Virus record (IMG/VR): IMGVR_UViG_3300045125_000169
Location: 1 to 64,000 of that record
Strand: one strand, 5' to 3'
Length of the DNA stretch: 64,000 bases
Source of the DNA: a virus
A program made the position numbers and the translations under genes. Below the pieces are notes generated by a model. The model was not told the origin of the DNA. It made no database searches and saw only the letters and a program-made list of their open reading frames with translations. Of the stretch, positions 4,848-59,677 are shown piece by piece (position 1 is the stretch's first letter; each line of letters starts with the position of its first letter).

Positions 4848-5180
4848 ATGAGCTTTCTGCAATCTTTGGAAAAGAGATATGCTGAGTGCCAAGCTGGTGT
4901 TTATAAAGCTCGTTCCGTCAAAAAGCGGGATGAGCCTCAGGAAGCACCTAAGGGTTCGTCACAATTTGCTGCCCTTCAGACCACGTTATCGTCTAAGATA
5001 GTTGCAGATCTTTTCAAGAAGATAAAAAGCAAGGGTAATTTGAGTTCTAAGGACTTGCAGGCTTTAGCTAACGTGAGTCCTAAGATTCTTGGTGCTTTGC
5101 TTTTAGATATGCGGGTTTTGACCAAGGCCAAGCAAGCGAGTTTTGTTCGCAAGCTCTCGGAAGCGATGCTTAAAAAATAG
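4848..5180 (+). CDS. hypothetical protein with MSFL-type N-terminal tag
   Basis: A 110-aa basic helical protein preceded by GGG 3 nt after the stop of the upstream gene. It begins MSFLQSLEKRYAECQAG, one of the clearest examples of the leader shared by many proteins in this window (see the finding on the N-terminal tag). The rest, with a Lys-rich linker and a helical C-terminus, is not recognised. Its place directly before the portal gene suggests a head-associated or internal protein. Confidence 0.65.
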   Translation: MSFLQSLEKRYAECQAGVYKARSVKKRDEPQEAPKGSSQFAALQTTLSSKIVADLFKKIKSKGNLSSKDLQALANVSPKILGALLLDMRVLTKAKQASFVRKLSEAMLKK

Positions 5181-5191
5181 AGGTACGAGCT

Positions 5192-8100: not shown

Positions 8101-8632
8101 TCCAGGAACGCAATTCGTCTTAGCAACAGAGGCTGAAAGCCGTATGTTCATCAAGACGATGAACGGGTTCAAACCTCTAGCCTCGTTCTTCAATGACTTG
8201 TACTACGTTTCAGATATTGATCCTGACTTCAAGGATTATAATCCCCTGAAGATTAGCCCATGTCGTGCTTTGATTTTACAAGCGAAGCAAAAGTTCGACA
8301 TGCAGGGGAAAGTCACTATTGATGCTGGTTCACGATGGCTTATGGACGAAAGCGATAAGATAGCACCTGGGAAACCTTTTAAAGATATTGTAACGCAGCA
8401 GGAACTTTTAGAAGCCTTCGTTCGAGTATTTATGGAAAGAACTCAGGGATCTAAACCTGGAAAATTTGTTAAAAGACGATATTACATTGGCAATGATTGG
8501 GTGCATATCAATAGAGATGGGAGTGTCGCCATTTTATGGGGTGCTCGGACCAGTGCCATATCCTTGGATAAGCAAAAAGTTTTAAAACATCTGCCCTTTG
8601 TAAAAGATGCGCTTCTCACATTCTTAAAGTAG
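5192..8632 (+). CDS. portal protein with long C-terminal extension, 1146 aa
   Basis: The first ~500 residues look like a myovirus portal: an N-terminal segment with IEDWIPRQPTNLHLLFRKIY, then alternating wing and stem-like segments (LALRxRVN-type loop, LKMRALGVSEAYLSGEVN). It follows terminase, the normal gene order. After an acidic Gly-rich linker (about 6771-6835), another ~600 residues follow, including a Lys/Gln/Pro-rich low-complexity stretch (about 7267-7440) and a folded-looking AT-richer domain to the end. Typical portals are 450-600 aa, so the protein is about twice the expected length. The start is TTG after AGGTACGAGC. I do not recognise the extension and see no protease or scaffold motif in it. 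Confidence 0.8.
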   Translation: MGYFDFKKTVAGNYLDRRNPPYRAATAGLASKQSLANFDQSRFNPQKDRLEEGSIIEDWIPRQPTNLHLLFRKIYLRDAISGSVVDIFSSLPWGKIYELIGIDDPKVMQMYHDMLEALEIWNDLSMISRELLIIGRMVGSMVFNEQKGLWDSLVPIDPDQARLTPVPTDTKPLVDVLSSPAWREFSRSTDPRLVEVKEKLPKNVLEMLQNTSGYLPLDPLNTLFLARRVNQYDKIGTSLYTRVLPAWAYETALWNASLTGVRRRNRSILLLTAGIQDQWEPNDDELGALTQLFMQADEDPTGAVIAVRQGVDASEIRDPSSIWGISQEYDFLTTLKMRALGVSEAYLSGEVNVSTMEAARTSLGKQLATFRDMVITEIFQRQLFPTFARIHNFQKRTKAELDHGIRLTPGSRADREAEYERRMRENDRLSQWGFPVVSAKMSLDIPTEALLLPRLITEDTLRPEQDVAYLEMLDKIAEKGVPVPLRIWASAAGYDLDKAMAMMEEDAVLKKRMAQLTTNSEQAGAPAGGDGGGGDEEDLFGGGGPDEAGVGRTATIPPKWDFTGVQKLDRIKPMNNFRPVEANFESNPYHKIYAKINPRYLSELNVPSDRILVPYQPTEQIMDKRVEESTMKWKAKVDGRWYEVVDVEDQGDGLPNLYHLRNRAPVNQDEVEDLDVAASVSFIPQLEVLARKKDRRREMIQKELRQRDKIKKNKNQKQTPPTQKIQPKKVKKPKDPQQQTQQEKMGLNKYGNLPATREEKKVVEPELLDENNQPIVDKNENESQIDDSHNDSRGAQDHASLQKIRSMENPKLFVVIFRNNRDGESKFLNMTKSLTDTQHSMLFFKGDRGDLQGLYAFFMSGSKEPEFERVAKPLGSPYMFVELPEDFFAQDSPFDNISFTELNQALAGDETRLKRELNEIMHRISDVGPGGQISAIRMSSEIPLDYSRFISIEHRPIEYYLGGHPSNAGTPGTQFVLATEAESRMFIKTMNGFKPLASFFNDLYYVSDIDPDFKDYNPLKISPCRALILQAKQKFDMQGKVTIDAGSRWLMDESDKIAPGKPFKDIVTQQELLEAFVRVFMERTQGSKPGKFVKRRYYIGNDWVHINRDGSVAILWGARTSAISLDKQKVLKHLPFVKDALLTFLK

Positions 8633-19383: not shown

Positions 19384-20611
19384 ACTAGACCCGCTTCTAT
19401 CCAATACCAATCAGTTCACCACCATGTCTGCGGTTACCTCTGAGTTGATCTCGGGTTCTACTGGAACTATGAGTATCACGTCTCTGCCATCCGAATACAC
19501 AATGACCAGCCACAACTTGAAATTCAAGCTGGAGTGTATTGCGGCTTCGGGCTTGAGCCCCTCAAGAACTGCGACCTTCGTTTGGGTGGCTTACGGCTCA
19601 AAAATGCTTTCGGGGTCTTTTGTTATCAACCAAGGAACCCCAACATCTTTGATGCAAACTCTTGGGGCTACGGGTATCGAGCTAACTCTGGCTTTCGGGG
19701 CAACGCACTTCAAAAAAGGCGACGTGTTCGACTTTGAAGTGATGGCACCCAGAACTTTCTACAAAGGCAAAGAGTCTGTTCGCAATCTCTCGCTCAAAGT
19801 CGGTTCGGCTCTCAACCCTGCCAACAATTCTGGCCTTCTGTCTGGCTCTTACCTTGCAGACACTCCAGAAGGACGTTATGGTGAATGGGTTGCTACAGTA
19901 AGTGATACGGAAGACGGTCTGTTTGAAATTCAAGACGGTCTGCGTTTTTACGCCAGGAACATGTACGTTCATTCCAGCGTACACTCTTCGCCCTCGGGGA
20001 TCTGCTATGGTGTTGGCGATGAGTTCATGACCCAAGCAAGATCTCTTGGGACGTTCAACTTTTCTCTCTTGAGAGAAGAGGGGCAAATCTTCCGCAATCC
20101 GTCTGAGATCGCTCTCGACGTGACGGGCGCTATCACGGGTGTTGCTGGTGCTCGCTACATCACCGTGCGCCATCTGCCCGAAGAAATCCTTTATGTTCGT
20201 CAGATCAGTGATTCCAGTGCGGTTTCTTATGTGCAAGTCGCAGGCACTCCGTTCCTGAGGCTCACGCAGACTGTGGTTGGCGACCTTGAAATCGCCTTCC
20301 GTTGGCGCGGAGCGGAACCGAACCCTGGTCAATTCTATTACGTTTCGGCCAAATACCTGCGACCAGACTCTTTCTACAATCGTCCTCTGCTCTTCTTGAC
20401 CCAGGGAGACGCTGAGAAGTTCCTTGCGCCCAGCACTGTGCGCAATGACCTTTACATCGGTGCTCAGATTGTTTTCGATAACGCGGTTCCTGGTTTGTTT
20501 GTGATTCAAGTGAAAGACGCAGACCAAGACGGTGTGTACCTCGCACCGACTACCGCACCGCTATTCAGGCTTTCATGCAAGACAAAAGAGCCACCGATCT
20601 CGTGGTTCTGA
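19310..20611 (+). CDS. tail sheath protein, middle part
   Basis: Continues the sheath after an indel near 19345. It carries a second inserted domain similar to the first (NLKFKLECIAASGLSPSRTA, then LAFGATHFKKGDVFDFEV), then sheath-like sequence. The frame breaks near 20545 (CGCACCGACTACCGCACCG): the correct frame reads TDYRTAIQAFMQDKRATDL and enters 20575..21459. The long minus-strand ORF overlapping it is a shadow. Confidence 0.72.
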   Translation: MILVHPTTKLGDVFYLQANGKGLIELDPLLSNTNQFTTMSAVTSELISGSTGTMSITSLPSEYTMTSHNLKFKLECIAASGLSPSRTATFVWVAYGSKMLSGSFVINQGTPTSLMQTLGATGIELTLAFGATHFKKGDVFDFEVMAPRTFYKGKESVRNLSLKVGSALNPANNSGLLSGSYLADTPEGRYGEWVATVSDTEDGLFEIQDGLRFYARNMYVHSSVHSSPSGICYGVGDEFMTQARSLGTFNFSLLREEGQIFRNPSEIALDVTGAITGVAGARYITVRHLPEEILYVRQISDSSAVSYVQVAGTPFLRLTQTVVGDLEIAFRWRGAEPNPGQFYYVSAKYLRPDSFYNRPLLFLTQGDAEKFLAPSTVRNDLYIGAQIVFDNAVPGLFVIQVKDADQDGVYLAPTTAPLFRLSCKTKEPPISWF

Positions 20612-21459
20612 ACTTCTTCCAAGGCTTGCCCGATCAGTTGAATGTCATCAATCGTGCCAATGACCCCTTTGAGCAGCATGAGTCCTTGACTTATGTGGGT
20701 GCTCCGATCAACACCCCGATTGGTTCTGAAATCGAGCCAAACTCTCTGGTGTTCTTGGCGAAGAAGTCTTTGGCCGTTTTCGGCAATAGCCCTGCCCATG
20801 GCACCCGCGTTATGGTTGCACACACCAGGGCAACTCGCACGATTCAGCTTGAAGACGGGTCCGTGACCGAAGTGACCCTAGACGGTTCCTTCGTCGCTGC
20901 TGCGATTGCAAGCCTTGTCTCTTCCTTTGCGTCTCCGACTGAGACCATTTTGCAAAAGCAGGTGACGAGCTTCACTACGGTTGATGCTTACACCGACCAA
21001 GAAAACGCCATCCTCGGTGGCGCTGGTTTGGTTTTCTTCCGTGACGAAGGTAATGGGATCTACCGTATCCGCGAAGACATCACGACCGACACTTTTTCAG
21101 CAGATACCAAGAACATCAATCACATGACACAAAAACAATTTGTGACTCGTGATATTCGTCGCACTATGAACAGTGCCGTGATTGCGACGGTGTTCCCAAG
21201 TGCAGGGGCAGGGGTCGCGTTGATTCAGTCGGTTCTGGTTGGACGTTTGATGTCGCTCGAAACCAGTGGTCTGATTGGTCGCTATCAGGATGAAACGGGT
21301 AACGTCCGTTCCTTGAATCCTGCGAAGGATGCTCTTGTCTTCCGTGACCCTAATGATCCTACGTTGTACCACATGGCCTATAATTATTTCTTAGCAACAG
21401 CGGCAAAGCGTATCTTTGGTCTCTACACTGTAAACCTATCAGCAGGTTTCCCTACTTAA
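20575..21459 (+). CDS. tail sheath protein, C-terminal part
   Basis: Contains the conserved sheath core and C-terminus: TTVDAYTDQENAILGGAGL, GIYRIREDITTD and KQFVTRDIRRTMNSAV correspond to the gp18-like region where the strand-exchange C-terminus meets neighbouring subunits. The whole sheath would be about 1000 residues, larger than T4 gp18 (659 aa), because of the two inserted domains. Confidence 0.8.
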   Translation: MQDKRATDLVVLNFFQGLPDQLNVINRANDPFEQHESLTYVGAPINTPIGSEIEPNSLVFLAKKSLAVFGNSPAHGTRVMVAHTRATRTIQLEDGSVTEVTLDGSFVAAAIASLVSSFASPTETILQKQVTSFTTVDAYTDQENAILGGAGLVFFRDEGNGIYRIREDITTDTFSADTKNINHMTQKQFVTRDIRRTMNSAVIATVFPSAGAGVALIQSVLVGRLMSLETSGLIGRYQDETGNVRSLNPAKDALVFRDPNDPTLYHMAYNYFLATAAKRIFGLYTVNLSAGFPT

Positions 21460-23837: not shown

Positions 23838-24113
23838 ATGTCTTTTATTAAGAAAGTAGAAGCGGCTGCCAAAGGCCAAAAAACGTATGAATTTATCGTT
23901 GATTTGGATGAGCGCGGAATATTCAGTTGTCATGTGGATGATCCAGAAGGAAAAGATGTTTGGTCGGCCTCAACTGAGGACGAGGTGGAAGGCGAATTTT
24001 GGCCTGTAAGGGATGGCTTTATGAAGCATACGGAGGATATGAAGGGTCTTGAGAATTATTTAAAATCCATGAAAATCATGCCGAAAGATGCCGTTTTGAA
24101 GTATGTCGGGTAA
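23838..24113 (+). CDS. hypothetical protein with MSFI-type N-terminal tag
   Basis: A 91-aa acidic protein with an excellent ribosome-binding site (GAGGAGG) and the leader MSFIKKVEAAAKGQ. The remaining 75 residues look like a small alpha/beta domain (EFIVDLDERGIFSCHVDD). Not recognised. The tag suggests it belongs to the same delivered or packaged set as the other tagged proteins. Confidence 0.65.
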   Translation: MSFIKKVEAAAKGQKTYEFIVDLDERGIFSCHVDDPEGKDVWSASTEDEVEGEFWPVRDGFMKHTEDMKGLENYLKSMKIMPKDAVLKYVG

Positions 24114-24120
24114 AGTAATC

Positions 24121-24570
24121 ATGCGCCTCCTATCCCTTCTAATTTTCTCAACACTCAGCTTGGCTCAGGTCGAGGCACCACCGATTTCAGATCCTGTGCC
24201 GACTCCATACCCTGGCCCTTCCGCCCTGCAAGTTGAGATCAATCAGGTGCGGGTGCAATATAATCTCCCGCAAGTCGTGTCGCCTTATGGACTGGACTGT
24301 GCAGCCGTTGTCCACGCGGTAGACCTTGCGTCTCACCAGACCTGTAGTCATATCGGTTCCGATGGCTCGACTTTAGAAGACCGAGTAGCCGCTTGTCAGT
24401 CCACTGCTACGAGCGAGTGGATTGCCTGTGGCTTCCATACTTCTAAGGACGCTATGGCTTATTTTTTATCGCAACCTGAGTTCAAAAATAAGCTCATCGA
24501 CTCAAGCCTTCTAGCCGTGGGAACAGCCAGAGCAAAAGACGTGTGGGTGGTGGTATTTTTAAGTAAGTGA
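24121..24570 (+). CDS. exported CAP-domain (SCP/PR1-like) protein
   Basis: About 149 aa from the ATG at 24121, which gives a clear signal peptide (MRLLSLLIFSTLSLAQ). The mature part shows CAP-superfamily landmarks: LDCAAVVHAVDLASHQTCSH, then GSDGSTLEDRV and paired cysteines. CAP proteins are secreted, Cys-rich and functionally diverse. They are common in bacteria but unusual in phage. Export to periplasm or outside is implied. Confidence 0.75.
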   Translation: MRLLSLLIFSTLSLAQVEAPPISDPVPTPYPGPSALQVEINQVRVQYNLPQVVSPYGLDCAAVVHAVDLASHQTCSHIGSDGSTLEDRVAACQSTATSEWIACGFHTSKDAMAYFLSQPEFKNKLIDSSLLAVGTARAKDVWVVVFLSK

Positions 24571-37483: not shown

Positions 37484-38474
37484 TCATGGATTTGTGGCAG
37501 ATCTCAAGTACCATTCGACGGTCTTTTTAAGACCTGTTTCGAGAGTCTCTTGAGGCGTCCACCCAAGCTCCTTTTTGATCTTGGTCGCATCGATCGCGTA
37601 CCGAAAGTCATGGCCTGGACGATCTGTGACGAAGGTGATTTGCTCTTTATAGGAGGTCGCTTTGGGTTTGAGACAATCCAAAGTGTCGCAAAGAGTTTCC
37701 ACCAACTCTAAGTTGCGACGTTCATTGTGACCACCGATATTATAGCTTTCTCCAAGTCGGCCTTTTTCAAGGACCAGAACCAAAGCCCGCACATGGTCCT
37801 CGACATAAAGCCAGTCGCGGATATTATCGCCCTTTCCATACACGGGGATTGGCTCACCGCTCAGGGCTTTATGGATAACGTGCGGTATAAGTTTTTCCCT
37901 ATTTTGATAGGGTCCATAGTTATTCGAGCAGTTGGTGATGATGCCAGGAAACCCGTAAGTATGAAACCAAGCTCGTACCATAAAGTCTGAGGCCGCTTTG
38001 CTTGCCGAGTAGGGCGAGTTGGGAGCGTAAGGTGTCGTCTCGGTAAAGTAACCAGAATCCCCGAGAGTCCCGTACACTTCATCGGTTGAGACGTGGAGAA
38101 AGCGAAAATTCTTTTTGTCTGCTTTCTTGAGGTAGGCTCTCGTCTCTTCCAACAGAGTCGTCGTTCCTACGACGTTGTTTTTCACAAAGAGCGCAGGACC
38201 AGAGATCGAGCGATCAACATGCGACTCTGCCGCGAGGTGCATGATGGCGTCAGGCTCTTCGGCCTCTAGCAAATCTCTCAAGCCAATACGGTTACAGATA
38301 TCGAGGATTTTGAGACTGTGCCGAGACGCGGGCAAACCTTCGAGCCCATCGAGATTTGCAGCATAGGTGAGCTTATCGACGTTGATGACATTGTAGTCAG
38401 TAGACTGAACTAAGTAACGCACCAGTGCCGAGCCGATAAATCCCGCACCACCTGTCACCAGTATCTTTTGCATC
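37484..38474 (-). CDS. rmlB: dTDP-glucose 4,6-dehydratase
   Basis: About 330 aa from the ATG at 38474 (GGGAG upstream). NAD-binding [15 protein letters not shown], catalytic region [16 protein letters not shown] with the Tyr-x3-Lys pair, and [10 protein letters not shown] are all present: a full-length extended SDR of the RmlB family. The reaction converts dTDP-glucose to dTDP-4-keto-6-deoxyglucose, the step that leads to rhamnose and other deoxysugars. No other Rml gene is in the window, so the product would feed host pathways or phage glycosyltransferases. It is read in frame with the upstream ORF, see 38475..38965. Confidence 0.95.
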
Positions 38475-38965
38475 TTAAACTCCCACCAACCTACAAAAAT
38501 AATCGAGGTCTGATTCTTCTTTTCTAGTGAATCTAGCACGGAAATAACTTCACATTGGAAAAGAATCGCGGCTTGTGCTGAGTTGACATTGCTCACTTGA
38601 AAATAAGACTCCTCTCGACTGTCCCCATCACCCATAGAATCATAGATCTCTGCGTCGAGGTATCTTTGTAGGCAGCTTAAAGTCCATCCATCGTGACGAT
38701 AAAAGCGTATTTTATAATTTGCACAACGAACAAACTTTTTACCCATGACAATTCTACGATATATTGTGATGTTTTCATCGATGCTATTGAGTTCTGAATC
38801 GATCTCTTCTACTCTTTTCTTTAAAGATTTTCTCCATAAGAAAAAGGGCGATCTACGAGAGTAGACCTCTCTTAGGATGATTGCCCGGTCAAAAAGGTTT
38901 TTTAAAAGTTCATCTTGGGCTTTGGTGACGCTGCGCTCATAAGAAGGAATGGCTCGATCTAACAT
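38475..38965 (-). CDS. hypothetical protein fused in frame to RmlB
   Basis: About 163 residues with no stop before the RmlB ATG (...FVGWWEF-K-M). Basic helical N-terminus ([30 protein letters not shown]), then an alpha/beta part with [11 protein letters not shown] and an IIFVGWW C-terminus. RmlB has its own ribosome-binding site inside this end. The sequence GAGTTTAAG would give a stop with one base shift, so the fusion is probably produced by an indel. Family unknown. Confidence 0.55.
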
Positions 38966-39246: not shown

Positions 39247-39957
39247 AAATCTGCGTTTAAGCTCAATTCCGCATTGTCTGAGTGACTGTACTCAGAAACC
39301 TTACGCTCAAAGAAGTTCACCTTGGTTTCCATATCGTTCATGCGCATAAAATCAAATGGATTTCTCTGCGCCGTAGATAGGGTCAAACCCGAACTTCTTG
39401 GTCACAAGGTCTGCAACGAACTCAATGTATTGGCACATCAGACCTGAGTTCATACCGATCAAGTTGACAGGGAGAGCATCGCAGACAAACTCTTTTTCAA
39501 TCGCCACGGCTTCCATCATGATCTGATAGAAGTCAGCCTTGGAAATCTTAAGGCCCAACGTGTGATAGAGCATCACCGCAAACTCCCAGTGCATACCCTC
39601 ATCCCGCGAGATCCAGTTGTTGGCCGTTGCGAGTCCTGGAAGGATTCCTCGCTTACGGAACCAAAAGATCGCACAGAAGGAACCACTGAAAAACACGCCT
39701 TCAACGATTGCAAACGCAACCAGTCTTTTGACAAAATCCGCTTGCGAATCCACCCAACACAAAGCCCACTCTGCTTTGCGCTTAACCGCAGGGACATTTT
39801 CTATGGCGTTGAAGAGTCGATCTTTTTCTTCGGGATCTTTGACATAGGTGTCAATTAAAAGAGCATACGTCCAGGCGTGGACCGCTTCCCTTGGATTTGA
39901 TCGGGTAGAAGGCTCGTGCCTCTGGGATTTCAACCTCTTTATAAAACCGCACGGCAA
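39243..39957 (-). CDS. nrdB: ribonucleotide reductase small subunit, C-terminal part
   Basis: Frame with VHAWTYALLIDTY (E-x2-H metal ligands), VEGVFFSGSFCAIFWF, ISRDEGMHWEFAV (E-x2-H ligands), and after an indel near 39365 NPFDFMRMNDMETKVNFFE with the C-terminal tail. NrdB supplies the metal-radical cofactor to NrdA. The first ~25 residues of the printed ORF are out of frame. It joins 39851..40171 around 39890 through two compensating indels, where the usual FYxFQ-x4-E-x2-H motif is disturbed. Confidence 0.88.
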
Positions 39958-40171
39958 GGTTTTCGTTCACAATCCCATCAGACTGAGCAAAGAACGCCAG
40001 GACGTGGGTGATATAATGGATCTCGCCTGGAGAAAGGGTCTTGAGATGAGCTAAGTCCTGGGAGAAGTCGATATCCTTAATGGTCCAAAACATCTTGTGG
40101 TGGGTCTCGAAGGCTTCCCAGAGTCCATGGTATTTGACAGGGAACAGTGAGTATTTGTTGTTACTCGACAT
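39851..40171 (-). CDS. nrdB: ribonucleotide reductase small subunit, N-terminal part
   Basis: The real start is the ATG at 40171 (MSSNNKYSLFPVKYHGLWEA). It contains HKMFWTIKDIDFSQD (W-x-x-x-D with the first metal Asp) and ITHVLAFFAQSDGIVNENL, a standard class I NrdB N-terminus. Longer upstream extensions in this frame are not protein-like. The C-terminus is in 39243..39957. Confidence 0.88.
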   Translation of the reverse strand: MSSNNKYSLFPVKYHGLWEAFETHHKMFWTIKDIDFSQDLAHLKTLSPGEIHYITHVLAFFAQSDGIVNENLAVRFYKEVEIPEARAFYPIKSKGSGPRLDVCSFN

Positions 40172-40289
40172 AAAGGAAGACCCTCTCCAAGACAGTCCAC
40201 CAGGGAGCGAAGCCCCGAGTGGTTGAATTTTTTGGATTGTAGCTACCCTTACCGTGGCACCGAGGCACTCTTCTGTCAAGACGCAAGGA

Positions 40290-40310
40290 AAGTGCAACAG
40301 GCTGTTGCAC
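40290..40310 (-). terminator. perfect palindrome at end of 40310..40522, possible terminator
   Basis: AGTGCAACAG / CTGTTGCACT around one base, directly at the stop of the upstream minus-strand gene and followed on that strand by TTTCCTT. Probably a weak terminator or an operator in the 120-nt leader of nrdB. Confidence 0.5.
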
Positions 40311-44788: not shown

Positions 44789-45121
44789 TTACGACTTTTG
44801 GGAAATCTCCCAGACCGTCCGGTAGATTTTGCGCACGTCCTCAGGGATTCGCAGGATTTGCTGGACCGAACCATTGTTTGAAATAATTTGGTCCATCATC
44901 CGTTTGTCCCAAAGACCAAGCTCTTGCAGGTGCTTCACGAGATGCTTATTGATGACCACAAACTCACCTGCAAGCGTTTCCCGCTTGTAGAGGTTGCTCG
45001 TGTGAATTTCAAAAGCCTCGAAGTTATCGAAGATCTGGCTTGTGGATGCGGTGGGCATTGGGGCCAGGAGCAAGCTGTTGCGAGCACCGAATTTTTTACT
45101 CGTTCGCGCAAGGCTTCCCAC
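44789..45121 (-). CDS. nrdA: ribonucleotide reductase large subunit, fragment 4
   Basis: In the true frame it runs ...[19 protein letters not shown] (the conserved [11 protein letters not shown] loop), [20 protein letters not shown] and MMDQIISNNGSVQQI. The first residues before NSLLLAPMP are out of frame, and an indel near 45090 links it to 44935..45873. Confidence 0.85.
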   Translation of the reverse strand: MGSLARTSKKFGARNSLLLAPMPTASTSQIFDNFEAFEIHTSNLYKRETLAGEFVVINKHLVKHLQELGLWDKRMMDQIISNNGSVQQILRIPEDVRKIYRTVWEISQKS

Positions 45122-45873
45122 GTCTCTTTGTGCTTCAGTGGAACCTCGTGCTCACCGTGCCAGAGGTCAAACTGGAAAAGACCTTGGGATAAAGGACTAC
45201 CCGCAAAAGACTCATACGGACCATCTTTCTCCGCGAGGTCCACGGACGCTTGCATCGCTCCAAGGTAAATGGTCTCAAAGATTTCGTGATTCAGCTTGCG
45301 GGCCTCGGGTGAGTCGTAGGGAATCCTGAGCATCATAAAGGTGTCTGCAAGACCTTGCACCCCAATCCCGATGGGACGATGCTTAAGATTTGAGTTTTCG
45401 GTCGCGGGTGTCGGGTAGAAATTTTTGTCGATGACATGGTTGAGGTTCACCGTCGCGTCGTAAGAGACCTGCCGCAAACTTTCGAGATCGTAAGTATCCC
45501 CTTGGACAAATTTGGGCAGACAGATCGACGCGAGATTGCAGACCGCAGTTTCCTCGGCGCTGCTGTATTGGCAGACTTCCGTACAAAGGTTGGAGGACTT
45601 AATCGTCCCTAAATTTTTCTGGTTTGATTTACGGTTAACGGAATCCTTGTAGAGCATGTAGGGAGTGCCTGTTTCCTTTTGCGAACTACAGATCCTTTTC
45701 ATCAGGTCGGAGGCTTTGACGACCTTGCGTCCTCGGCCTTCGGCTTCATAGCGGGTATAAAGCTCTTCAAAGGCTTCGCCGTAGCAATCAAAAAGCCCTG
45801 GAGCCTCATCAGGGAGAAGAGGGTCCAGTTGCCGCCCTCTTGTAGGCGTTTCATAAATAGGTCTGGAATCCAT
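44935..45873 (-). CDS. nrdA: ribonucleotide reductase large subunit, fragment 3
   Basis: Central alpha-subunit barrel: [32 protein letters not shown] (active-site E and C of the N-x-C-x-E loop), [13 protein letters not shown], and [16 protein letters not shown]. These are class I NrdA motifs. Joins the upstream fragment near 45860. The last ~45 residues are out of frame. Confidence 0.88.
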
Positions 45874-46154
45874 AAAGCGGTGAACAGGTCATGGCACCGT
45901 CGCTCATCGTCCCCTGTGTTTTTCCGCAGGTCTAAAAAGTCCTCGACATCAGCGTGCCAGGGTTCAAGGTAAATCGCTGCCGAACCTTTGCGCTTACCCC
46001 CTTGGTTGACGTATCGAAAGGTGGCGTTAAGGTGTCGCAGCATGGGGATGATGCCATCCGAAAATCTCTGGCTCGACTTGATGATCGCACCATCGGCCCT
46101 GACGTTATGAACCCAAAGGCCAACGCCACCGGAATTTTTGAGATAATGGCACAC
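45702..46154 (-). CDS. nrdA: ribonucleotide reductase large subunit, fragment 2
   Basis: Follows the C-extein start after an indel near 46140: [38 protein letters not shown] and [23 protein letters not shown] are standard NrdA sequence. It moves out of frame near 45860. Confidence 0.88.
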
Positions 46155-48130
46155 TCTTTATCGGTGTCGTAGATGCCATTAAGGGAATCACTGCGGGTAG
46201 CTATTAAGAAACAATTTTCTGCTAAAAGACCGACCACCGAATAAGAATGGGTTTCTTCTACCCCCAAGGTGTAGACATATTCCGGTCTGGTCGAATTTTT
46301 GACTTTCGACGAGATCCTTAAAAAATTATTCCCCTCAATTTCCAAGACTTGTCCCGATTTCGTCTCGCGTTGCCTTGCTAAGTTAATCCGATCATCCCCA
46401 TATTGCTTCAAGGGATTGAGGTCCAAGGTATGTGGTATGCCCATGTAGGCGAGCTTTGATCCTTTATCCTGAAAGGAGACGTCGATCCCGACTTGCCTTG
46501 CGACCATGTAAAATTCTTTTACTAGTTTCTTATTTGATAAGGTAACACCATATCCAGATCCATTCGCGTACACATGGCCATCACTAGAAACAAGACCTTC
46601 CAAGAGGGCAACCACGAGATCTCGGTGCCAGGAGAAGATATCTTTAAAGAGACGTTTTCCATCAAAACCTTTGCCGAACAGATGGTAGAAGATATTTGCC
46701 AAAATCGTTGAGTGAACAGTAACACTTACAACATTCGGATTTTTTGAGTGCGGAAGGTGCGTTACTTTGACATTTAAGCCAAAGGCCCGACTCATGTAAT
46801 CCTGACAAAAATCGATCAAAGGCTTATTTTCATAATGAATCGCGATATTTATATTCTTCAAGTACCGTCTACCAGAAGCATTTTTCCCTGATGCAATACT
46901 ACCGTCACCGTACCAGATACCAAGAAATTTTGCGAAATCCCGATCGATTTTGATAAAGCGATTGATCGAACTGTTCTTTCTGCACAAATAGACCTCCGAA
47001 TCGCTTGCATTCAAGCGATGTGGTCTTTGCCAGGTGCTTACCGTGTGTATCTTGTCCTCTACTACGTCAAACGTGAAGTTGACGTTGCCATTATCGGATT
47101 TTGGAAGGTATGGCAAAAAGTCCGACAAATCGACAACATAATCGTTTTTGCCAGAAAGCATTTTTGGAATAGCAATATAATCCCCTTTTCTCAGGGATTC
47201 TATGCTGTTCATTTGGGGTTGCTCACCCCAAGCGATTTGTTCCTTCGTAATTGAGAAGAATCGATGATTGCCCGTAACCGTGAAGCTAGGCGTTTTAAAA
47301 ACTTTAACATCAAAAAGCTGTCGGTCATTTAGTTTATTCTTGTGTACCTGGACTACTTTTTCAACAGTCCCCTTGTGCGTCACGACGAGATCGCCTATCT
47401 GAGTGCTCTCAATAGGTTTAATTCCATCATTAACAGTTAAGATTTCAGTTCCCTCAACAAAGCAACTTGACATTTGCGGCCTACTGGTTCCCGCGTTGAA
47501 AAGCGTAGGTGTTGCATGAGTATAGAAGCCGAGCGAAAGGTAGTCGTAGAGCTTTTTGACTTGTTCGATATTTGCTCCGCAGATCCCAACGGCGACACGG
47601 AGAAAAAGACTCTGCGGCCTTTCAACAACTTTTCGCTCGCAGGCCCAGGAGCCATCGGCAAGGCGTTTTCTGCTAGAGGTGTCGATGATCCCAAGCAGGT
47701 ATTTGCTTTCGAGGGTTTTGAAACCGAAGTACGAGAAACTGAAGTCGCGTGTGTAGTCGATGATCTGGTCCAAGCCTTCGGGTCTGAGAGCTTGAGCATC
47801 CTGCATAAAGGAGTCTGACAGGACACCCGCTTGATGCAACTGGGTCCACGCTTCCCAAAAGTCGTCGGGAGTTTCTTTGTGGAGAGCAGAGGCCGCGATG
47901 CCTGCGGCGAGTTTGTCATAGTCAGGATGCTCAGGAGCGAGCACCGCAGCAGTTTCAATGAGGAGGCGATCGAGTTCTCGGGTGGTGATCCCATCGCAAA
48001 GACCACCGACCACTTTTTGCGCTATGAGTACGGGCTCGACCTTGAGCCCAGCCGAGCGGTTTTTGACTCGGTTAAGAATTTTGTCAAAAGACACTTCCTC
48101 GCGTTGACCGTTCCGTTTCACAACCTGCAT
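45932..48130 (-). CDS. nrdA: ribonucleotide reductase large subunit, N-terminal part with intein
   Basis: Begins with an ATP-cone ([24 protein letters not shown] upstream of ATG), the allosteric activity domain. ESKYLLG and [19 protein letters not shown] follow. A 417-residue intein sits before [20 protein letters not shown]. NrdA makes dNDPs from NDPs and together with NrdB and ThyA forms the phage nucleotide supply. After the C-extein start the frame is lost near 46140. The full gene is 44532..48130 with four indels. Confidence 0.92.
46214..47464 (-). other. intein with LAGLIDADG endonuclease in NrdA
   Basis: Residues 223-639 of the ORF. Starts [18 protein letters not shown] (block A), contains [11 protein letters not shown] (T-x2-H block B), two LAGLIDADG-like helices ([23 protein letters not shown]) and ends [12 protein letters not shown] followed by Cys. 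The penultimate residue is Glu instead of the usual His. The insertion point is directly before the Cys of the SSC motif, the substrate-site redox cysteine of NrdA. Confidence 0.92.
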
Positions 48131-48259: not shown

Positions 48260-49147
48260 TCAGCATTTTCTTTTTTCCCAAAACATTTGTGCGTTGAAAC
48301 ATTCGTCCTCGATCTCCACTAAAAAAATGCGGCCCTGCTCAAAGCCCTCAAGGGTGTAAGTTTTCTTGGTGCTGAGAAAAAAACGTCCTTGCTCCAGGTC
48401 AAAATCAGAACCCCCTTGGTTTCGGAAAATCACTTCCGTCCCTTTGGGGGTTTTGGCAGTAACAGGCTTGGGCATCGTCCCCTCAAAAAGTGCGCGGAAC
48501 CGTGTCCACACAGTCTCGTGGTTGTCTATCTGCGTGTGACCAACACCTTCGACGTGGAAGTTTTCCGCTTGGGGAATTTCCGACGAGTGCAGATAGATTG
48601 TCGTGGTCTGGTAAAAGTTAGACCACAAATTGGTTTTTTGCGCCACCGCATCTTGGGATAGGTCTTGTGGTGCCCTTTGGCACCCCATCCACCCTGTTGG
48701 TCTGGTAAGCTCGCACTCGACGGGACTGATCGGGTCGATGGTGTAAAGGTACGACTTGGTGTGCCCTTGGAGGGTGAGCGCCATGGCAAGCCATCCACCA
48801 TACGAATGACCGATATACAGGGTGTGGTCCTTTTCTTGGCTGTTCACGAGGTTCAGAATATCTTGAGGCTTGGCTCTTTGAACGGTGTCCGTGCGGTAGA
48901 AAAGCGTACCATAAGAGTCATAGCATGTGAGTATTGTGTTCACCCGGTAGGTTTCCCGCAGGGTATCTAAAACTCTCTCGGCCTGGGGGTACATGCTCAT
49001 AGAGCGGGGGTCTCCATCCCGACCGCAGCTATTGCGTCCCCCCATGACCAAGACGAGCAGGCGCTCGTCTTTTTCAAAGGTTTTAATTTCAGATGCCTGT
49101 TGAGAGCCGCAGCCCACCAAGAGCAAGAGAAATAAAATAATGTGCAT
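48260..49147 (-). CDS. alpha/beta hydrolase lipoprotein
   Basis: A 295-aa protein with a lipoprotein signal peptide (MHIILFLLLLVGC, lipobox LVGC at residues 10-13). The mature domain has the nucleophile elbow GHSYGGW, an acidic TIDPIS segment and a late His in GVGHTQIDNH: an alpha/beta hydrolase catalytic triad, probably an esterase or lipase. The C-terminal ~70 residues form an extra beta-rich tail. It follows the GH5 lipoprotein with a 1-nt gap on the same strand. Confidence 0.8.
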   Translation of the reverse strand: MHIILFLLLLVGCGSQQASEIKTFEKDERLLVLVMGGRNSCGRDGDPRSMSMYPQAERVLDTLRETYRVNTILTCYDSYGTLFYRTDTVQRAKPQDILNLVNSQEKDHTLYIGHSYGGWLAMALTLQGHTKSYLYTIDPISPVECELTRPTGWMGCQRAPQDLSQDAVAQKTNLWSNFYQTTTIYLHSSEIPQAENFHVEGVGHTQIDNHETVWTRFRALFEGTMPKPVTAKTPKGTEVIFRNQGGSDFDLEQGRFFLSTKKTYTLEGFEQGRIFLVEIEDECFNAQMFWEKRKC

Positions 49148-49148
49148 A

Positions 49149-49553
49149 CTACTTCCAACGCAGGCGTTCGATCAGTTTGAGCTTCCTGGTATTGACGGTT
49201 TTCCAGTCATCTTCTAAAAGACCCCCTGTATCGCCTGAGTTGGGGTTCAGACTCCAGAAAAAAGTGTTAGTCAAGGACTTTTTTCGCAGATAATTCACAA
49301 AAGCCTCGCCCCAGACCTGATCGAGCCCCTCGAAGCGGCCTCCCCATTCCCCTATGACCAGGGCAAAATCCTCTTGGTCTTTGATATAACCAAAGTGCTC
49401 TTCCCAGATCGCGGGCATGTTGCTTGGAAAGTCTTGGGTGAGGAAATAGTCCTGCTTGGCTACCGAGGGGCCGTAGACGTGGGGACTAAGAACCACTTGA
49501 GTGCGGGGGAGTCGAATCGGCTTGGCAACTGCCTCGGTCAAATTTTCCCCCAA
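49149..49553 (-). CDS. GH5-type glycoside hydrolase, C-terminal fragment
   Basis: In the frame from about residue 4: ENLTEAVAKPIRLPRTQVVLSPHVYGP, then VIGEWGG with the nucleophile Glu of GH5, and TFFWSLNPNSGDTGGLL, the conserved W after the last strand. The join to 49538..49870 needs one indel near 49545 (YAFWG-ENLTE). Confidence 0.82.
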   Translation of the reverse strand: MGENLTEAVAKPIRLPRTQVVLSPHVYGPSVAKQDYFLTQDFPSNMPAIWEEHFGYIKDQEDFALVIGEWGGRFEGLDQVWGEAFVNYLRKKSLTNTFFWSLNPNSGDTGGLLEDDWKTVNTRKLKLIERLRWK

Positions 49554-49870
49554 AAGGCATACTGCTTTCCTAGGGGCGACTCATTTCCGACACCTTCCAC
49601 AAAGAGCAAAATTTTGGGGTTGATTTTTAGGATCTCTGCTCCTGCCTTTTCCACCATAAGACGCCACTGGTCCCAGGTCAGACCGTAGGGTTCATTAAAT
49701 AGATCGATGCCCATCACGTTGTCGTATGAAAGGGAAAGTTGGGCGAGGGTCTTCAGATCCTCTATCCAACGCTCAACGGAGTAGTTTGCACAACTCCCAA
49801 CCCCTGGTCCTGGCTTGTCGGTATGGGATAAGCGGTTGCTACAGGTGTGCAAGTCTAAAAGCACATACAT
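49538..49870 (-). CDS. GH5-type glycoside hydrolase, middle fragment
   Basis: Contains MYVLLDLHTCSN (conserved DLH) and MGIDLFNEPYGLTWDQW with the acid/base Glu of the NEP motif. Together with VIGEWGG in the next fragment these are the two catalytic carboxylates of the GH5 cellulase-like family. Confidence 0.82.
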   Translation of the reverse strand: MYVLLDLHTCSNRLSHTDKPGPGVGSCANYSVERWIEDLKTLAQLSLSYDNVMGIDLFNEPYGLTWDQWRLMVEKAGAEILKINPKILLFVEGVGNESPLGKQYAFWGKI

Positions 49871-50303
49871 TTCTTTTTGGAATTGGTGTAGGCCAGGAGC
49901 TTCTTTAACTGTTCGAGAGGGGAAGAGTAACCGTCTTTGCCTGGAGCTTTTCCGGCCAAAGACTCGGGTGCTAAGGGGATACGGAGCGAGTTGAAGCCGA
50001 TTTGATGGACTTGATCGACGATACTCTCCAGAGATCGTCCACTCCAGAGTCCATGCAATCCTAGATACTCGCCTTCCAGGCCGAACCAGTTGATACCTCG
50101 GACAGAGGTAGGCAGACCGTGCGCGTGAATCATGTGATTTCTTTTATCCACGTAAAAAGACTCCTTACGTCCACGCACTCACCAAACACGTCATTGCACA
50201 AAGGTCGCGGTGGCATTTGTGGGGCCTCTAGCACGGTTTCGAGCCCACATGCCTGCAAACTCAAGAGCAGAAAAAGACAAAGAAGTCCCTTAAAGTACGA
50301 CAT
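49855..50303 (-). CDS. GH5-type glycoside hydrolase lipoprotein, N-terminal fragment
   Basis: Real start at ATG 50303: MSYFKGLLCLFLLLSLQAC gives a lipoprotein signal with lipobox LQAC. An indel near 50160 leads to VDKRNHMIHAHGLPTSVRG, then INWFGLEGEYLGLHGLW and IGFNSLRIPLAPESL, the typical GH5 first strands. The whole enzyme (49149..50303) is a membrane-anchored exported endoglycanase-like protein. Substrate unknown; cellulose-like beta-glucans are the family norm. Confidence 0.78.
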
Positions 50304-50333
50304 ATATCCTTCTCCTTGGTTAGGGGAAAAGTA

Positions 50334-51065
50334 TCAGTCGAGTTTAGATTCTAGCCAAGCCTCGAAAAACGCATCGGCAATTTTCTGTTGCCCGATCTTG
50401 GATGGATGAAAACAATCGACCGTTGAAATGTCCTCGACATCATAAACTTGTGTGTCTAAGCGCGTGATGACATGGAGCTTGGCAAAGTTTTTTTCTAGGT
50501 CGATCAGTTCTGCGTTGATCTCTTTAATCTGACGCATGACGCCTGCACGATATGCATCGTCTCGTGCCATAAAGTTAGGGCAGGACACTGAAGTGGTCAC
50601 CTGACAGTAAGGTGACTCGCGGCCCACGTCATAAACCTGTTGCAGGTCGGGGAGTGTTCCCAGAAATATCCCTTTGATGTTGGGATTTTTTTCCAACCTC
50701 TCGACGAGGCGATGGATGTTTCCAGTGACCGTGTGCCCCAGCCCCCAGCACACATCGTTTGTCCCCACCAGGAGAGAGACATAATCCGCTTCGACATGCT
50801 CGGCAAAGGACACTTGATAACCAACAATGCTGCTCAACGCTCCAGGCAGCGAGACGTTGTAGGCCGAGTCAAATCCTGCTTGCTTGGCAAAGTTGCGTTC
50901 GATTTGATCGCCTGTCGCCCAAGAGTAATGAAACCCGTGCTGCATAGACGGGTTCGCATGAGTTCCTGACGTGATCGAGTCCCCTATTGCGACATAGGTC
51001 GAGGCTTGCGCGATATTAAGATCGAGCGCCCCTGATAACAGTAAACCGACGACGGTTCGCAACAT
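50334..51065 (-). CDS. exported SGNH/GDSL hydrolase
   Basis: A 243-aa protein with an N-terminal signal peptide ending near AQAS. It carries the four SGNH blocks: AIGDSITSG (nucleophile Ser), a Gly block in SLPGALSS, LVGTNDVCW (Asn) and DCFHPSKIG (Asp-x2-His). Such enzymes are esterases that remove acetyl or acyl groups from polysaccharides or lipids. It is the first of three exported hydrolases in a row on this strand, so joint action with the GH5 enzyme on a glycan is plausible. Confidence 0.88.
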   Translation of the reverse strand: MLRTVVGLLLSGALDLNIAQASTYVAIGDSITSGTHANPSMQHGFHYSWATGDQIERNFAKQAGFDSAYNVSLPGALSSIVGYQVSFAEHVEADYVSLLVGTNDVCWGLGHTVTGNIHRLVERLEKNPNIKGIFLGTLPDLQQVYDVGRESPYCQVTTSVSCPNFMARDDAYRAGVMRQIKEINAELIDLEKNFAKLHVITRLDTQVYDVEDISTVDCFHPSKIGQQKIADAFFEAWLESKLD

Positions 51066-51179
51066 ACGTTGTTTTCCTTATAGGCGGAAGGAGTTTGCGA
51101 TAACTGACACGCAAAGGTCCGAGGCACCAAAGCACCCAAGAGTTTTCCAGCTTCCACCCGCAGCGCCACATAAAAGGGT

Positions 51180-51383
51180 TCAACTCAACAAGGAGCGAAA
51201 CGCGCAGAAATAAAGGTGGCCTATTTTTCCAAGCCAACAAGTAATACAAAAAAGAAACATCAAAGTCTGAGTAAAGAGAACGACCGTCACGATCCAACTT
51301 GCAAAATGCTCAGGCCCAGGCCCTCCGATCAAGAAGCCAAGACAAGTCAAGAGGACAAACCAAGATCGTGTTCTAGGGCGCAT
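51180..51383 (-). CDS. small membrane protein (possibly frameshifted)
   Basis: A 67-aa ORF with two hydrophobic stretches (FVLLTCLGFLIGG; WIVTVVLFTQTLMFLFCITCWL). The frame may continue after about 51190 as YVALRVEAGKLLGALVPRTF to about 51083. It starts inside the end of the upstream gene 51373..52168. Function unknown. Confidence 0.4.
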   Translation of the reverse strand: MRPRTRSWFVLLTCLGFLIGGPGPEHFASWIVTVVLFTQTLMFLFCITCWLGKIGHLYFCAFRSLLS

Positions 51384-54125: not shown

Positions 54126-54428
54126 TCACGCTCTCTTACAAGAGCGTTCCGGTATGGTCAGAGTTTCGTGCTTCAGCGGGCAGGTAACCCCACCCTCCAC
54201 ACCTGAGGACGGTTCCCGTCCCGTGACAAAGCCTGTCAAAGCATAATTCAAGATCACTCGTGCAGCATTCACATCCCGATCAAGAGTGAGCCCACAACAT
54301 CCACATAAATGTGTGCGCTCTGACAAAGCCTTTTTTGAACAACTCCGCATCCGGAGCAGCTTTGCGAAGGTTTGACTTTCCTGGTTGGTATTTCGATGTA
54401 GGGAATACCAGCGTCTGCCGCTTTGCAT
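54126..54428 (-). CDS. tnpB: TnpB, C-terminal fragment
   Basis: After the indel it reads KKALSERTHLCGCCGLTLDRDVNAARVIL, giving the second half of the zinc finger (CGCC) and the third RuvC acidic residue (DRDVNAA). The first residues of this ORF are out of frame. The stop lies inside the terminal hairpin. Confidence 0.82.
   Translation of the reverse strand: MQSGRRWYSLHRNTNQESQTFAKLLRMRSCSKKALSERTHLCGCCGLTLDRDVNAARVILNYALTGFVTGREPSSGVEGGVTCPLKHETLTIPERSCKRA
54128..54147 (-). repeat. terminal hairpin at tnpB end (right end)
   Basis: ACGCTCT-CTTACA-AGAGCGT, a 7-bp stem overlapping the tnpB stop codon. In IS200/IS605 elements such hairpins mark the transposon end and, for TnpB, the 3' part of the guide (omega) RNA. 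Confidence 0.6.
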
Positions 54429-55405
54429 TCCAACAATGTGAAAAACTTGCCAGGGGACGTGTCAAGAATACTGCGATTTAAGCCTCTCTTATAAGCACCG
54501 CCGTGGACTGTCATGGCTTTGATATTTAGAGCCTCTGTGGCCACGAGCCGAGACATGCGTACAATGCGGGCACTCATTTGGTGTAAAAAGTCATCACGCT
54601 GATCAGCTAGCTTCTCATGGCATGAGACCAGCTTCAACTTGGCTTTGGCCCTATTCCTGGACCCTTTCTTTTTGCGGGATAAGCTTCGTTGCGCCTTTTT
54701 TAATTGGCCATCATACTTTTTGAAGTGGCGTGGATTTTCGATCAAATACTGCTTGTTATCTTCAGTAACCATGGTCACAAAAGTGCTAGTACCCCAATCA
54801 ATCCCAAGAGCCGCTGTGCCACTAGGGCGATGCGGCCTTAGGGTCGCAAAAGTGATGGATGCGTACCATTTCCGGCCCTTTCGCATGATCTCGACCGTCT
54901 TTGGCTTGCCTGGGTCGCGGCTACTCTTTACTTCGTCAACAAACCTCGGACGTCCACGTGCCTGCAAATTCCCAAGACCGCTTAAATGCAGTGTGCCATT
55001 CACATAATCCACATGAGGCTTGAACCTCCACCCATCCCCGTGAGCCGCATATCCCCAACCCTTAAACCGTTCAAATGCCTTGAACCTCGGAAATCCAGGC
55101 GCAGCCTCTCCCGCTCTCACTCGTCTAAAAAAGGCCTGGAACGCTCTATCCAGACGCCGCAGAGTCACTTGCTCTGACTGCGCATTGAGCGCAGCATATT
55201 CAGGAAACTCAGCCCGAAGCTGAGTGAGATCTTTAGCCTGGTCGTAGTAATTAAGACTCTTACCGCAGCGGCGGTAGGCATCAATGCGCTGCTCAAGGGC
55301 CGCATTATACAAACGTTGGTGGAGCCGCATGATCTCGACCATTTTATTGGCCTGCTTGGTCGATGGGTAAATGCGGTATGAAACTTTTCGCTTGACCTGA
55401 TCCAT
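54269..55405 (-). CDS. tnpB: TnpB RNA-guided nuclease, main part
   Basis: IS605 OrfB protein with N-terminal helix-turn-helix (YRIYPSTKQANKMVEIMRLH), a first RuvC Asp in LGIDWGTSTFVT, a catalytic Glu in VATEALNIKAM, and the first zinc-finger pair CSGCG. The frame is lost near 54328, where A6 should be A7: repaired, it runs into 54126..54428. TnpB proteins are RNA-guided DNA nucleases that help retain the element. All three catalytic residues are present after repair. Confidence 0.92.
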   Translation of the reverse strand: MDQVKRKVSYRIYPSTKQANKMVEIMRLHQRLYNAALEQRIDAYRRCGKSLNYYDQAKDLTQLRAEFPEYAALNAQSEQVTLRRLDRAFQAFFRRVRAGEAAPGFPRFKAFERFKGWGYAAHGDGWRFKPHVDYVNGTLHLSGLGNLQARGRPRFVDEVKSSRDPGKPKTVEIMRKGRKWYASITFATLRPHRPSGTAALGIDWGTSTFVTMVTEDNKQYLIENPRHFKKYDGQLKKAQRSLSRKKKGSRNRAKAKLKLVSCHEKLADQRDDFLHQMSARIVRMSRLVATEALNIKAMTVHGGAYKRGLNRSILDTSPGKFFTLLECKAADAGIPYIEIPTRKVKPSQSCSGCGVVQKRLCQSAHIYVDVVGSLLIGM

Positions 55406-55429
55406 ACCCCGAACTATGTCTTAGTTCCT

Positions 55430-55842
55430 ATGAAAACGCAATCTCTAAATACCTTGCATCACTGTGTCTACGACCTAAAATATCACTTAGTTCTGGTGAC
55501 GAAATATCGTCGCAAATGCATCAACAAGGCGATCCTCTTACGGCTTGAAGAGCACTTGGCGCGACTTCTCCAGACTTGGGATTGTCAGCTTCTCGAATTT
55601 AATGGCGAGGCTGATCACGTCCACCTTTTGATGGCGCTCAATCCGAAGGCCCAACCTTCCCGACTTATCAATAATCTCAAGACGGTCACGTCTCGCTTGA
55701 TCCGGAAAGAGTTTGCCGACCATATAAAGAAATACTACTGGAAACCGATTTTTGGAGTCGCACCTACTGTCTCCTCACTGTCGGCGGAGCACCCCTCTCA
55801 GTGCTCAAGCAATACATTGAGAATCAGACCGAGGTCGAGTAA
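55430..55842 (+). CDS. tnpA: TnpA, IS200-type Y1 transposase (frameshifted)
   Basis: Single-strand transposase: HCVYDLKYHLVLVTKYRRK start, the HUH motif in ADHVHLLMAL and, after restoring one T in the T5 run near 55752, WSRTYCLLTVGGAPLSVLKQ with the catalytic Tyr in the following YIENQTEVE, stopping at 55842. The printed frame runs on to 55915 with unrelated sequence. Length (137 aa) is normal for the family. Confidence 0.9.
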
Positions 55843-55853
55843 AGGACCGCTCA

Positions 55854-55868
55854 CTTCGCTGCGCGAAG
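55854..55868. repeat. terminal hairpin at tnpA end (left end)
   Basis: CTTCGC-TGC-GCGAAG, a perfect 6-bp stem with a 3-nt loop 11 nt after the tnpA stop. Fits the subterminal hairpin recognised by TnpA. Confidence 0.55.
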
Positions 55869-55945
55869 ATCACGGTGTCGGCCTTCACCACCAACCAAGC
55901 CTCAGACGCCTTTAGCGACTGGCCGACTTTTCGATAGGCGGGGAA

Positions 55946-59181: not shown

Positions 59182-59677
59182 GTGAAAATCTTCGGCGCTT
59201 TGTTAGCTTTTCTTCTGAGTGTTGTCGCCCTTGAACAATTTGCTTCGGCCTACATCTTCCCACCGACTGTTTCCCAACTGGACGTGCCGCGTTATATGGG
59301 CAAGTGGTATGAAGTGGAGTCCACCAAACCGTTCTTTCAAAACGGATGTGTCTGCAACACGGCTGAGTACAAGTTGTTAGAAGACGGTACTGTATCCGTG
59401 AAAAATTCTTGCCACTTAGAAACTCCGACTGGACCTCTGCGCGTGGTTGAGGCTATCGCTCGACCGACCTCGGAACCTGGAAAACTTTGCGTGGACTTCG
59501 GTGGTGTTCGCCTGCCTATCGCCAACTACTGGGTCATCGACCTCGCACCAGACTACAGTTATGCGGTCGTCTCTACTCTCCTAAGAAATCCTGTGTGGAT
59601 TCTTTCGAGACAAACTGGTAGGATACGGGTTCAACACGTCGAAACTTTCTGAAACGATCCAAGTCTGTACCAAATAG
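59182..59677 (+). CDS. bacterial lipocalin (Blc-like), exported
   Basis: Start GTG 59182 (MKIFGALLAFLLSVVALEQF) gives a signal peptide. The mature part has the lipocalin G-x-W motif (VPRYMGKWYEVES), CVCNTAEYKLLEDGTVSV, and YWVIDLAPDYSYAVV with VWILSR near the end, all in the order of Blc-type outer-membrane lipocalins. The frame is lost at about 59608: repaired, it ends GYGFNTSKLSETIQV at 59677. Lipocalins bind small hydrophobic ligands such as fatty acids or lysophospholipids. Confidence 0.85.

Follow-up and report, generated by a model that had tools for sequence, protein, structure and literature searches.

A phage-borne cassette of three predicted exported hydrolases, among them a putative lipoprotein endoglucanase, with a possible role at the surface of the infected cell

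Three adjacent genes of an uncultivated phage (IMG/VR record IMGVR_UViG_3300045125_000169) encode an SGNH/GDSL hydrolase, a GH5 glycosidase and an alpha/beta-hydrolase, all predicted to be exported. On balance we think it probable that they form a moron or auxiliary cassette of a contractile-tailed phage, derived from the host's own lineage, and that the exported enzymes would digest a surface polymer of the infected cell. The record comprises 109,145 bases and the stretch analysed here (the window) is its first 64,000; positions are those of the window unless stated otherwise.

The record is that of a phage, because it carries a terminase large subunit (1269-3827, plus strand; phrog_17415, 1e-92), a portal protein (5192-8632, plus strand; phrog_16240, 1e-97) and the C-terminal part of a tail sheath protein (20575-21459, plus strand; phrog_279, 1e-10). 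These genes belong to a structural block on the plus strand (1-24 kb), and the cassette lies on the minus strand. The closest relatives of the terminase (27-34% identity) are those of large myophages (Xanthomonas PhiXhv-12, Lu11 and PaBG). In the right arm (56-109 kb), hallmark PHROG matches were absent among ten large ORFs, and viral relatives of its 937-aa protein were not found.

The cassette (48260-51065, minus strand) is read in the order SGNH, GH5, alpha/beta-hydrolase. The three hydrolases stand in a row on one strand, nearly gapless (gaps of 30 and 1 bases), just as the sequence-only reading had described. Their starts are preceded by Shine-Dalgarno-like motifs (AAGGA, AAGGAG and GGAAG); a sigma-70-like promoter was not found upstream of the cassette on the coding strand. 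On one side the cassette is adjoined by phage-type RNR genes, relatives of which are frequent among viral contigs (identities of up to 75-82%): RNR-alpha, the downstream neighbour (44789-48130, minus strand), and a frame-broken RNR-beta (39352-40297, minus strand; 69-83% identity to an intact 320-aa ORF of contig L173). The RNR-alpha gene contains a LAGLIDADG intein of approximately 1.2 kb, which is missing at the corresponding position in L173, the closest phage relative. Directly upstream of the SGNH gene, and overlapping its start, lies a gene for a small hydrophobic protein (51016-51383, minus strand), holin-like by eye; a frame change appears to break this gene as well. Farther upstream, a few kb from the cassette, a TnpB-like ORF (minus strand) and a divergent TnpA-like ORF (plus strand) were noted at 54269-55915 (IS605-type by eye). 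An NDP-sugar epimerase/GDP-mannose-dehydratase-type protein with an N-terminal extension of roughly 165 aa is encoded at 37484-38965 (minus strand).

The GH5 gene (49149-50303, minus strand) encodes a putative GH5_1-like endoglucanase of approximately 388 aa, matched by Pfam Cellulase on three segments. The protein begins MSYFKGLLCLFLLLSLQACG and has a basic n-region, a hydrophobic core and the lipobox LQAC with its cysteine at position 19; lipidation is predicted, and the lipobox named in the sequence-only reading is borne out. The acid/base Glu207 (NEP) and the nucleophile Glu323 (GEWGG) were both invariant in our alignment (A1); residue numbers refer to the sequence obtained by joining the frames. 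The best relatives in the PDB were 4tuf (3e-61), 1ece, EGPh and CelE2, of which the first three are endoglucanases; about 84% of the query was aligned with 4tuf, 1ece and EGPh (E values of 3e-61 to 7e-50). We take these four relatives to be members of GH5_1. The catalytic domains of the Xanthomonas enzyme (4tuf), Acidothermus E1 (1ece) and Pyrococcus horikoshii EGPh align with the window GH5, but the latter is a viral gene product with a short lipoprotein N-terminus and no carbohydrate-binding module.

The SGNH/GDSL hydrolase (50334-51065, minus strand; 243 aa) was matched by Pfam PF00657 Lipase_GDSL (6e-14) and carries the N-terminal signal peptide MLRTVVGLLLSGALDLNIAQA, followed by a serine, as had been claimed. 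The protein has all of catalytic blocks I, II, III and V (GDS-30, Gly75, GxND with N103, D217-x-x-H220), and these were invariant in an alignment of six relatives. Sequence relatives were not found in the PDB. A structure model of medium confidence (pLDDT 64) matched GDSL-esterase folds, including the CE3, CE16 and Axe2 acetylxylan esterases as well as lipases and thioesterases (11-21% identity). The phage protein has the blocks and the predicted fold of the SGNH/GDSL carbohydrate esterases and lipases, and differs from them by this low identity.

The putative alpha/beta-hydrolase-like lipoprotein (48260-49147, minus strand; 295 aa) begins MHIILFLLLLVGCGS and was assigned from an alignment of 12 homologues (A3) and a weak match to Pfam Abhydrolase_6, which lies below the gathering cut-off (17.8 bits versus 26.3); the same profile was matched by 10 of the 12 family members at E 0.01 (best, 1e-5). 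The nucleophile elbow (GHS115YGG), D138, which would serve as the acid, and H204 are conserved in A3, as are four invariant cysteines (C41, C75, C145 and C156), a pattern that fits an exported protein with disulfide bonds. A single-sequence fold of the protein was useless (pLDDT 43.5). The phage protein also has a C-terminal extension of approximately 70 aa that is missing from nearly all cellular homologues. Of the earlier claim of a lipobox LVGC, the lipobox itself (cysteine at position 13) and the hydrophobic core stood, and the lipobox cysteine is kept in 10 of 11 homologues in A3, but the signal peptide has no K or R in its n-region.

Lipoboxes were scanned in the whole record of 109,145 bases; as a control, the record was shuffled five times and the ORFs of 100 aa or longer were scanned likewise. 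Predicted lipoproteins in the record were two only, the GH5 enzyme and the alpha/beta-hydrolase, and none was found in the shuffled records. The N-termini of the GH5 enzymes of two phage relatives (contigs L011 and L013) are also lipobox-like. Other proteins with predicted export were noted in the record: a Blc-type lipocalin with a signal peptide (59182-59652, plus strand; Lipocalin_2, 1e-26), an SLT transglycosylase that has a signal peptide at its N-terminus and may be an exported endolysin (record positions 64127-64594, minus strand; L002:127-594), and a predicted exported outer-membrane beta-barrel protein (record positions 76999-77703, minus strand; L002:12999-13703) with a weak OMP_b-brl match (1e-4).

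From these features a course of events can be proposed as follows. The three cassette genes, presumably co-transcribed, would be translated as one coupled unit during infection, and the enzymes would be exported by Sec. The GH5 enzyme and the alpha/beta-hydrolase would then be lipid-anchored in the envelope, probably in the outer membrane, and the SGNH hydrolase would be released into the periplasm or beyond. The GH5 enzyme may cut beta-1,4-glucan (cellulose-like) chains, the SGNH hydrolase may strip acyl (probably acetyl) groups and the alpha/beta-hydrolase may cleave another ester, with the net effect that matrix or envelope polymer would be digested locally at the surface of the infected cell. 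The benefit could be either feeding or the clearing of the cell's own exopolysaccharide for progeny escape.

Surface clearing or exclusion assumes the same anatomy with a gain in phage spread, not in metabolism: the anchored enzymes would strip cellulose-like exopolysaccharide or its acyl groups, leaving progeny untrapped and sister phages unable to re-adsorb. We regard this as a serious but tentative possibility. A lipid anchor would confine the activity to the infected cell; Erwinia phage S6, itself a carrier of a GH5 cellulase, uses host cellulose as its first receptor (PMC9544554); and the lipocalin, the exported SLT transglycosylase and the outer-membrane barrel are encoded by the same phage. 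Against it, the host has no known receptor or exopolysaccharide, and tail-borne depolymerase genes of the window phage were not identified. Some phage morons act at the cell surface, namely superinfection-exclusion lipoproteins that go to the host envelope. Two of the cassette proteins are likewise predicted to be envelope-bound lipoproteins, but they are hydrolases with intact active-site residues, and to our knowledge the known superinfection-exclusion lipoproteins are not enzymes.

Alternatively, the genes may be nutritional auxiliary metabolic genes (AMGs), whose enzymes would break down beta-glucan or acetylated hemicellulose from the environment to nourish the infected (or lysogenic) cell, a reading that we hold to be plausible and yet doubtful. 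Free viral GH5 genes occur in soil (peat), and the enzyme of one has proven endomannanase activity (Emerson et al., 2018; PMC6786970); the bacterial homologues of the cassette enzymes are exported too, several of them with lipoprotein-like N-termini. However, a cell in lytic infection would have little time to benefit, and no transporter or sugar-catabolism gene was noticed beside the cassette in an unsystematic look. The soil viral GH5 likewise lies on a phage contig and is not known as a virion part, whereas the window GH5 is predicted to be lipid-anchored and stands in an operon with two esterase-type hydrolases; signal peptides are unmentioned in the main text of that study (PMC6786970). 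Because the lipocalin, the SLT transglycosylase and the outer-membrane-barrel protein also carry signal peptides, the envelope may be a broader target of the window phage, and remodelling is mildly favoured over feeding.

The sequence-only reading had treated GH5 as one intact ORF, which did not hold: as assembled, the gene is read in four successive frame segments (50303 to approximately 50150, 50178-49855, 49870-49538 and 49553-49149), and each of the three frame changes sits beside a run of five identical bases. In an alignment with the GH5 of phage contig L011, an unbroken protein of 393 aa, the segments were collinear. The RNR genes are broken in the same manner: RNR-alpha is split by four frame changes into five segments, most of these segments being 70-90% identical to a single 780-aa ORF of L173, and RNR-beta into three segments by two frame changes, with an intact ORF in the same contig. 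Since these conserved genes are broken likewise, the frame breaks in GH5 and in both RNR genes are very probably assembly indels and not decay, and GH5 is probably intact in nature. Homopolymer runs of the record showed only a mild deficit, at length 8 or more, and the evidence for indels is therefore the frame analysis and not the run lengths. It is very unlikely that GH5 is a decaying pseudogene and that the SGNH hydrolase and the alpha/beta-hydrolase alone are functional; its three frame changes would suit such decay, but mostly well-conserved genes of the same assembly share the damage and GH5 keeps both catalytic glutamates. Single-base frame breaks are frequent in conserved genes of the whole record, and ORF-based annotation will miss or split many of them.

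GH5 enzymes of the same broad type are carried by Erwinia phages Fifi067, Hena1 and S6, Serratia phage Parlo and Klebsiella phage LASTA, and these endoglucanases are 31-34% identical to the window GH5. In Fifi067, Hena1, Parlo and LASTA the GH5 domain lies inside a protein of 728-845 aa, mostly among structural genes, whereas the window GH5 stands alone as a predicted lipoprotein, belongs to an operon apart from the structural genes and falls in a separate clade. That the enzymes are particle parts which open the host surface on entry is suggested by the large multi-domain proteins, mostly encoded beside structural genes, that contain GH5 in all the annotated GH5 phages inspected, but it is highly improbable given the lipobox, the strand opposite to the structural block and the different clade. 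The view of these hydrolases as exported and non-virion was supported, their genes lying outside the plus-strand structural block. As a candidate phage virion depolymerase, the cassette was rejected: neither fusion to a virion module nor a location among structural genes was found. Phage GH5 genes and virion cellulases are already known; a phage cellulase with predicted surface anchoring, paired with an SGNH esterase, appears to be new.

Relatives of GH5 in viral contigs were found by an alignment-based search; single-sequence scans of viral contigs for close relatives of the SGNH hydrolase, the alpha/beta-hydrolase and the terminase gave zero matches, and annotated phages held no relatives of the SGNH hydrolase or the alpha/beta-hydrolase. 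The clearest recurrence is L011/G004, a 49-kb phage contig that encodes a terminase, a portal, a capsid and a tape measure protein of its own, in which an SGNH gene with a signal peptide (4976-5704; 43% identity to that of the window) is followed by a GH5 lipoprotein gene (5977-7158; 49% identity), in the same order and with both frames open. Structural genes common to the window phage and G004 were not detectable; among ORFs of at least 100 aa of the window phage, matches to G004 were limited to GH5, SGNH and two short ORFs without known function, and a third short ORF matched G005 weakly. Short ORFs at 24103-24570 (plus strand) and at record positions 65530-65991 (minus strand) match the otherwise unrelated G004 and G005 at 25-42% identity. 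Two further phage contigs carry GH5 enzymes that belong to this clade. In L012/G005, most structural genes of which are common to G004, GH5 is cut off by the contig end (58% identity over the remaining part); L013/G006 offers a third phage context (lysozyme, SbcC- and DnaB-like genes present) with a clear GH5 lipoprotein (42% identity), and SGNH was not found there. The alpha/beta-hydrolase was absent from all other viral contigs searched, also with an alignment as query. Judged from these comparisons, GH5, with or without SGNH, is common to phages that otherwise share almost nothing.

The prospect that host DNA had been wrongly joined to phage, raised by the sequence-only reading as what would undo its claim, can be set aside almost entirely: the cassette homologues are bacterial and none of ten large ORFs in the right half (56-109 kb) matched a hallmark phage family, but the SGNH-GH5(lipoprotein) pair recurs in an unrelated phage, in unchanged order and with both genes open, phage-type RNR adjoins the cassette on one side, and the cassette proteins are only about 30-49% identical to bacterial ones and so are not recent host DNA.

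A phylogeny of the GH5 domain, proposed earlier as the way to the donor, was run and places GH5 with proteins of one bacterial class. The nearest cellular GH5 (47% identity) is that of L041/G001, metagenome-assembled and labelled "uncultured proteobacterium". The class of G001, which by our guess is GTDB Bdellovibrionota_B, class Oligoflexia, was searched in 58 genomes (phylum and class comprise the same 58). Its closest SGNH relatives are in G022, G001, G020 and G023 (41-43%), its closest GH5s, 44-46% identical to that of L011, are in G022, G036 and G001, and 18 of the 58 genomes contain the alpha/beta-hydrolase family (up to approximately 40% identity); a search of 185 genomes from the class to which G002 (Oryzisolibacter) belongs found neither the alpha/beta-hydrolase nor SGNH. 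The GH5 tree makes the window and L011 proteins sisters (81), which group with L012 and the G001-class proteins (80); a wider group adds L013 and L043, the latter being one alphaproteobacterial MAG protein (99), and the virion-type GH5s in large proteins of other phages form a distant separate clade (99). The SGNH tree unites the window, L011 and four G001-class proteins in one clade (100/100), and the alpha/beta-hydrolase tree has long branches and no resolved branching. The cassette combines cellular homologues with a viral location, two of the features expected of a moron or auxiliary gene. The natural reading of these trees is acquisition from bacteria of the G001 lineage, which, going by the gene homologues, is probably also the host lineage.

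More speculatively, and with a good deal less than even confidence, several unrelated phages of one bacterial phylum may share a mobile surface-anchored "matrix-clearing" module (a lipoprotein cellulase, in some cases joined by an acyl esterase), which would remake the surface of the infected cell and so prevent the recapture of progeny by the cell's own exopolysaccharide; if so, it would be a bacterial-virus counterpart of influenza neuraminidase. Phage cellulases have so far been viewed either as virion entry parts or as loosely defined metabolic genes. A predicted lipid-anchored cellulase-esterase pair, present in at least two unrelated phages and with bacterial homologues in one lineage, separates these two ideas, because the cassette enzymes would act at the surface of a cell that is already infected. 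Feeding, release and exclusion can be told apart directly by experiment with three short genes, and surveys of AMGs should record signal peptides and lipoboxes before a carbon-cycling role is assigned.
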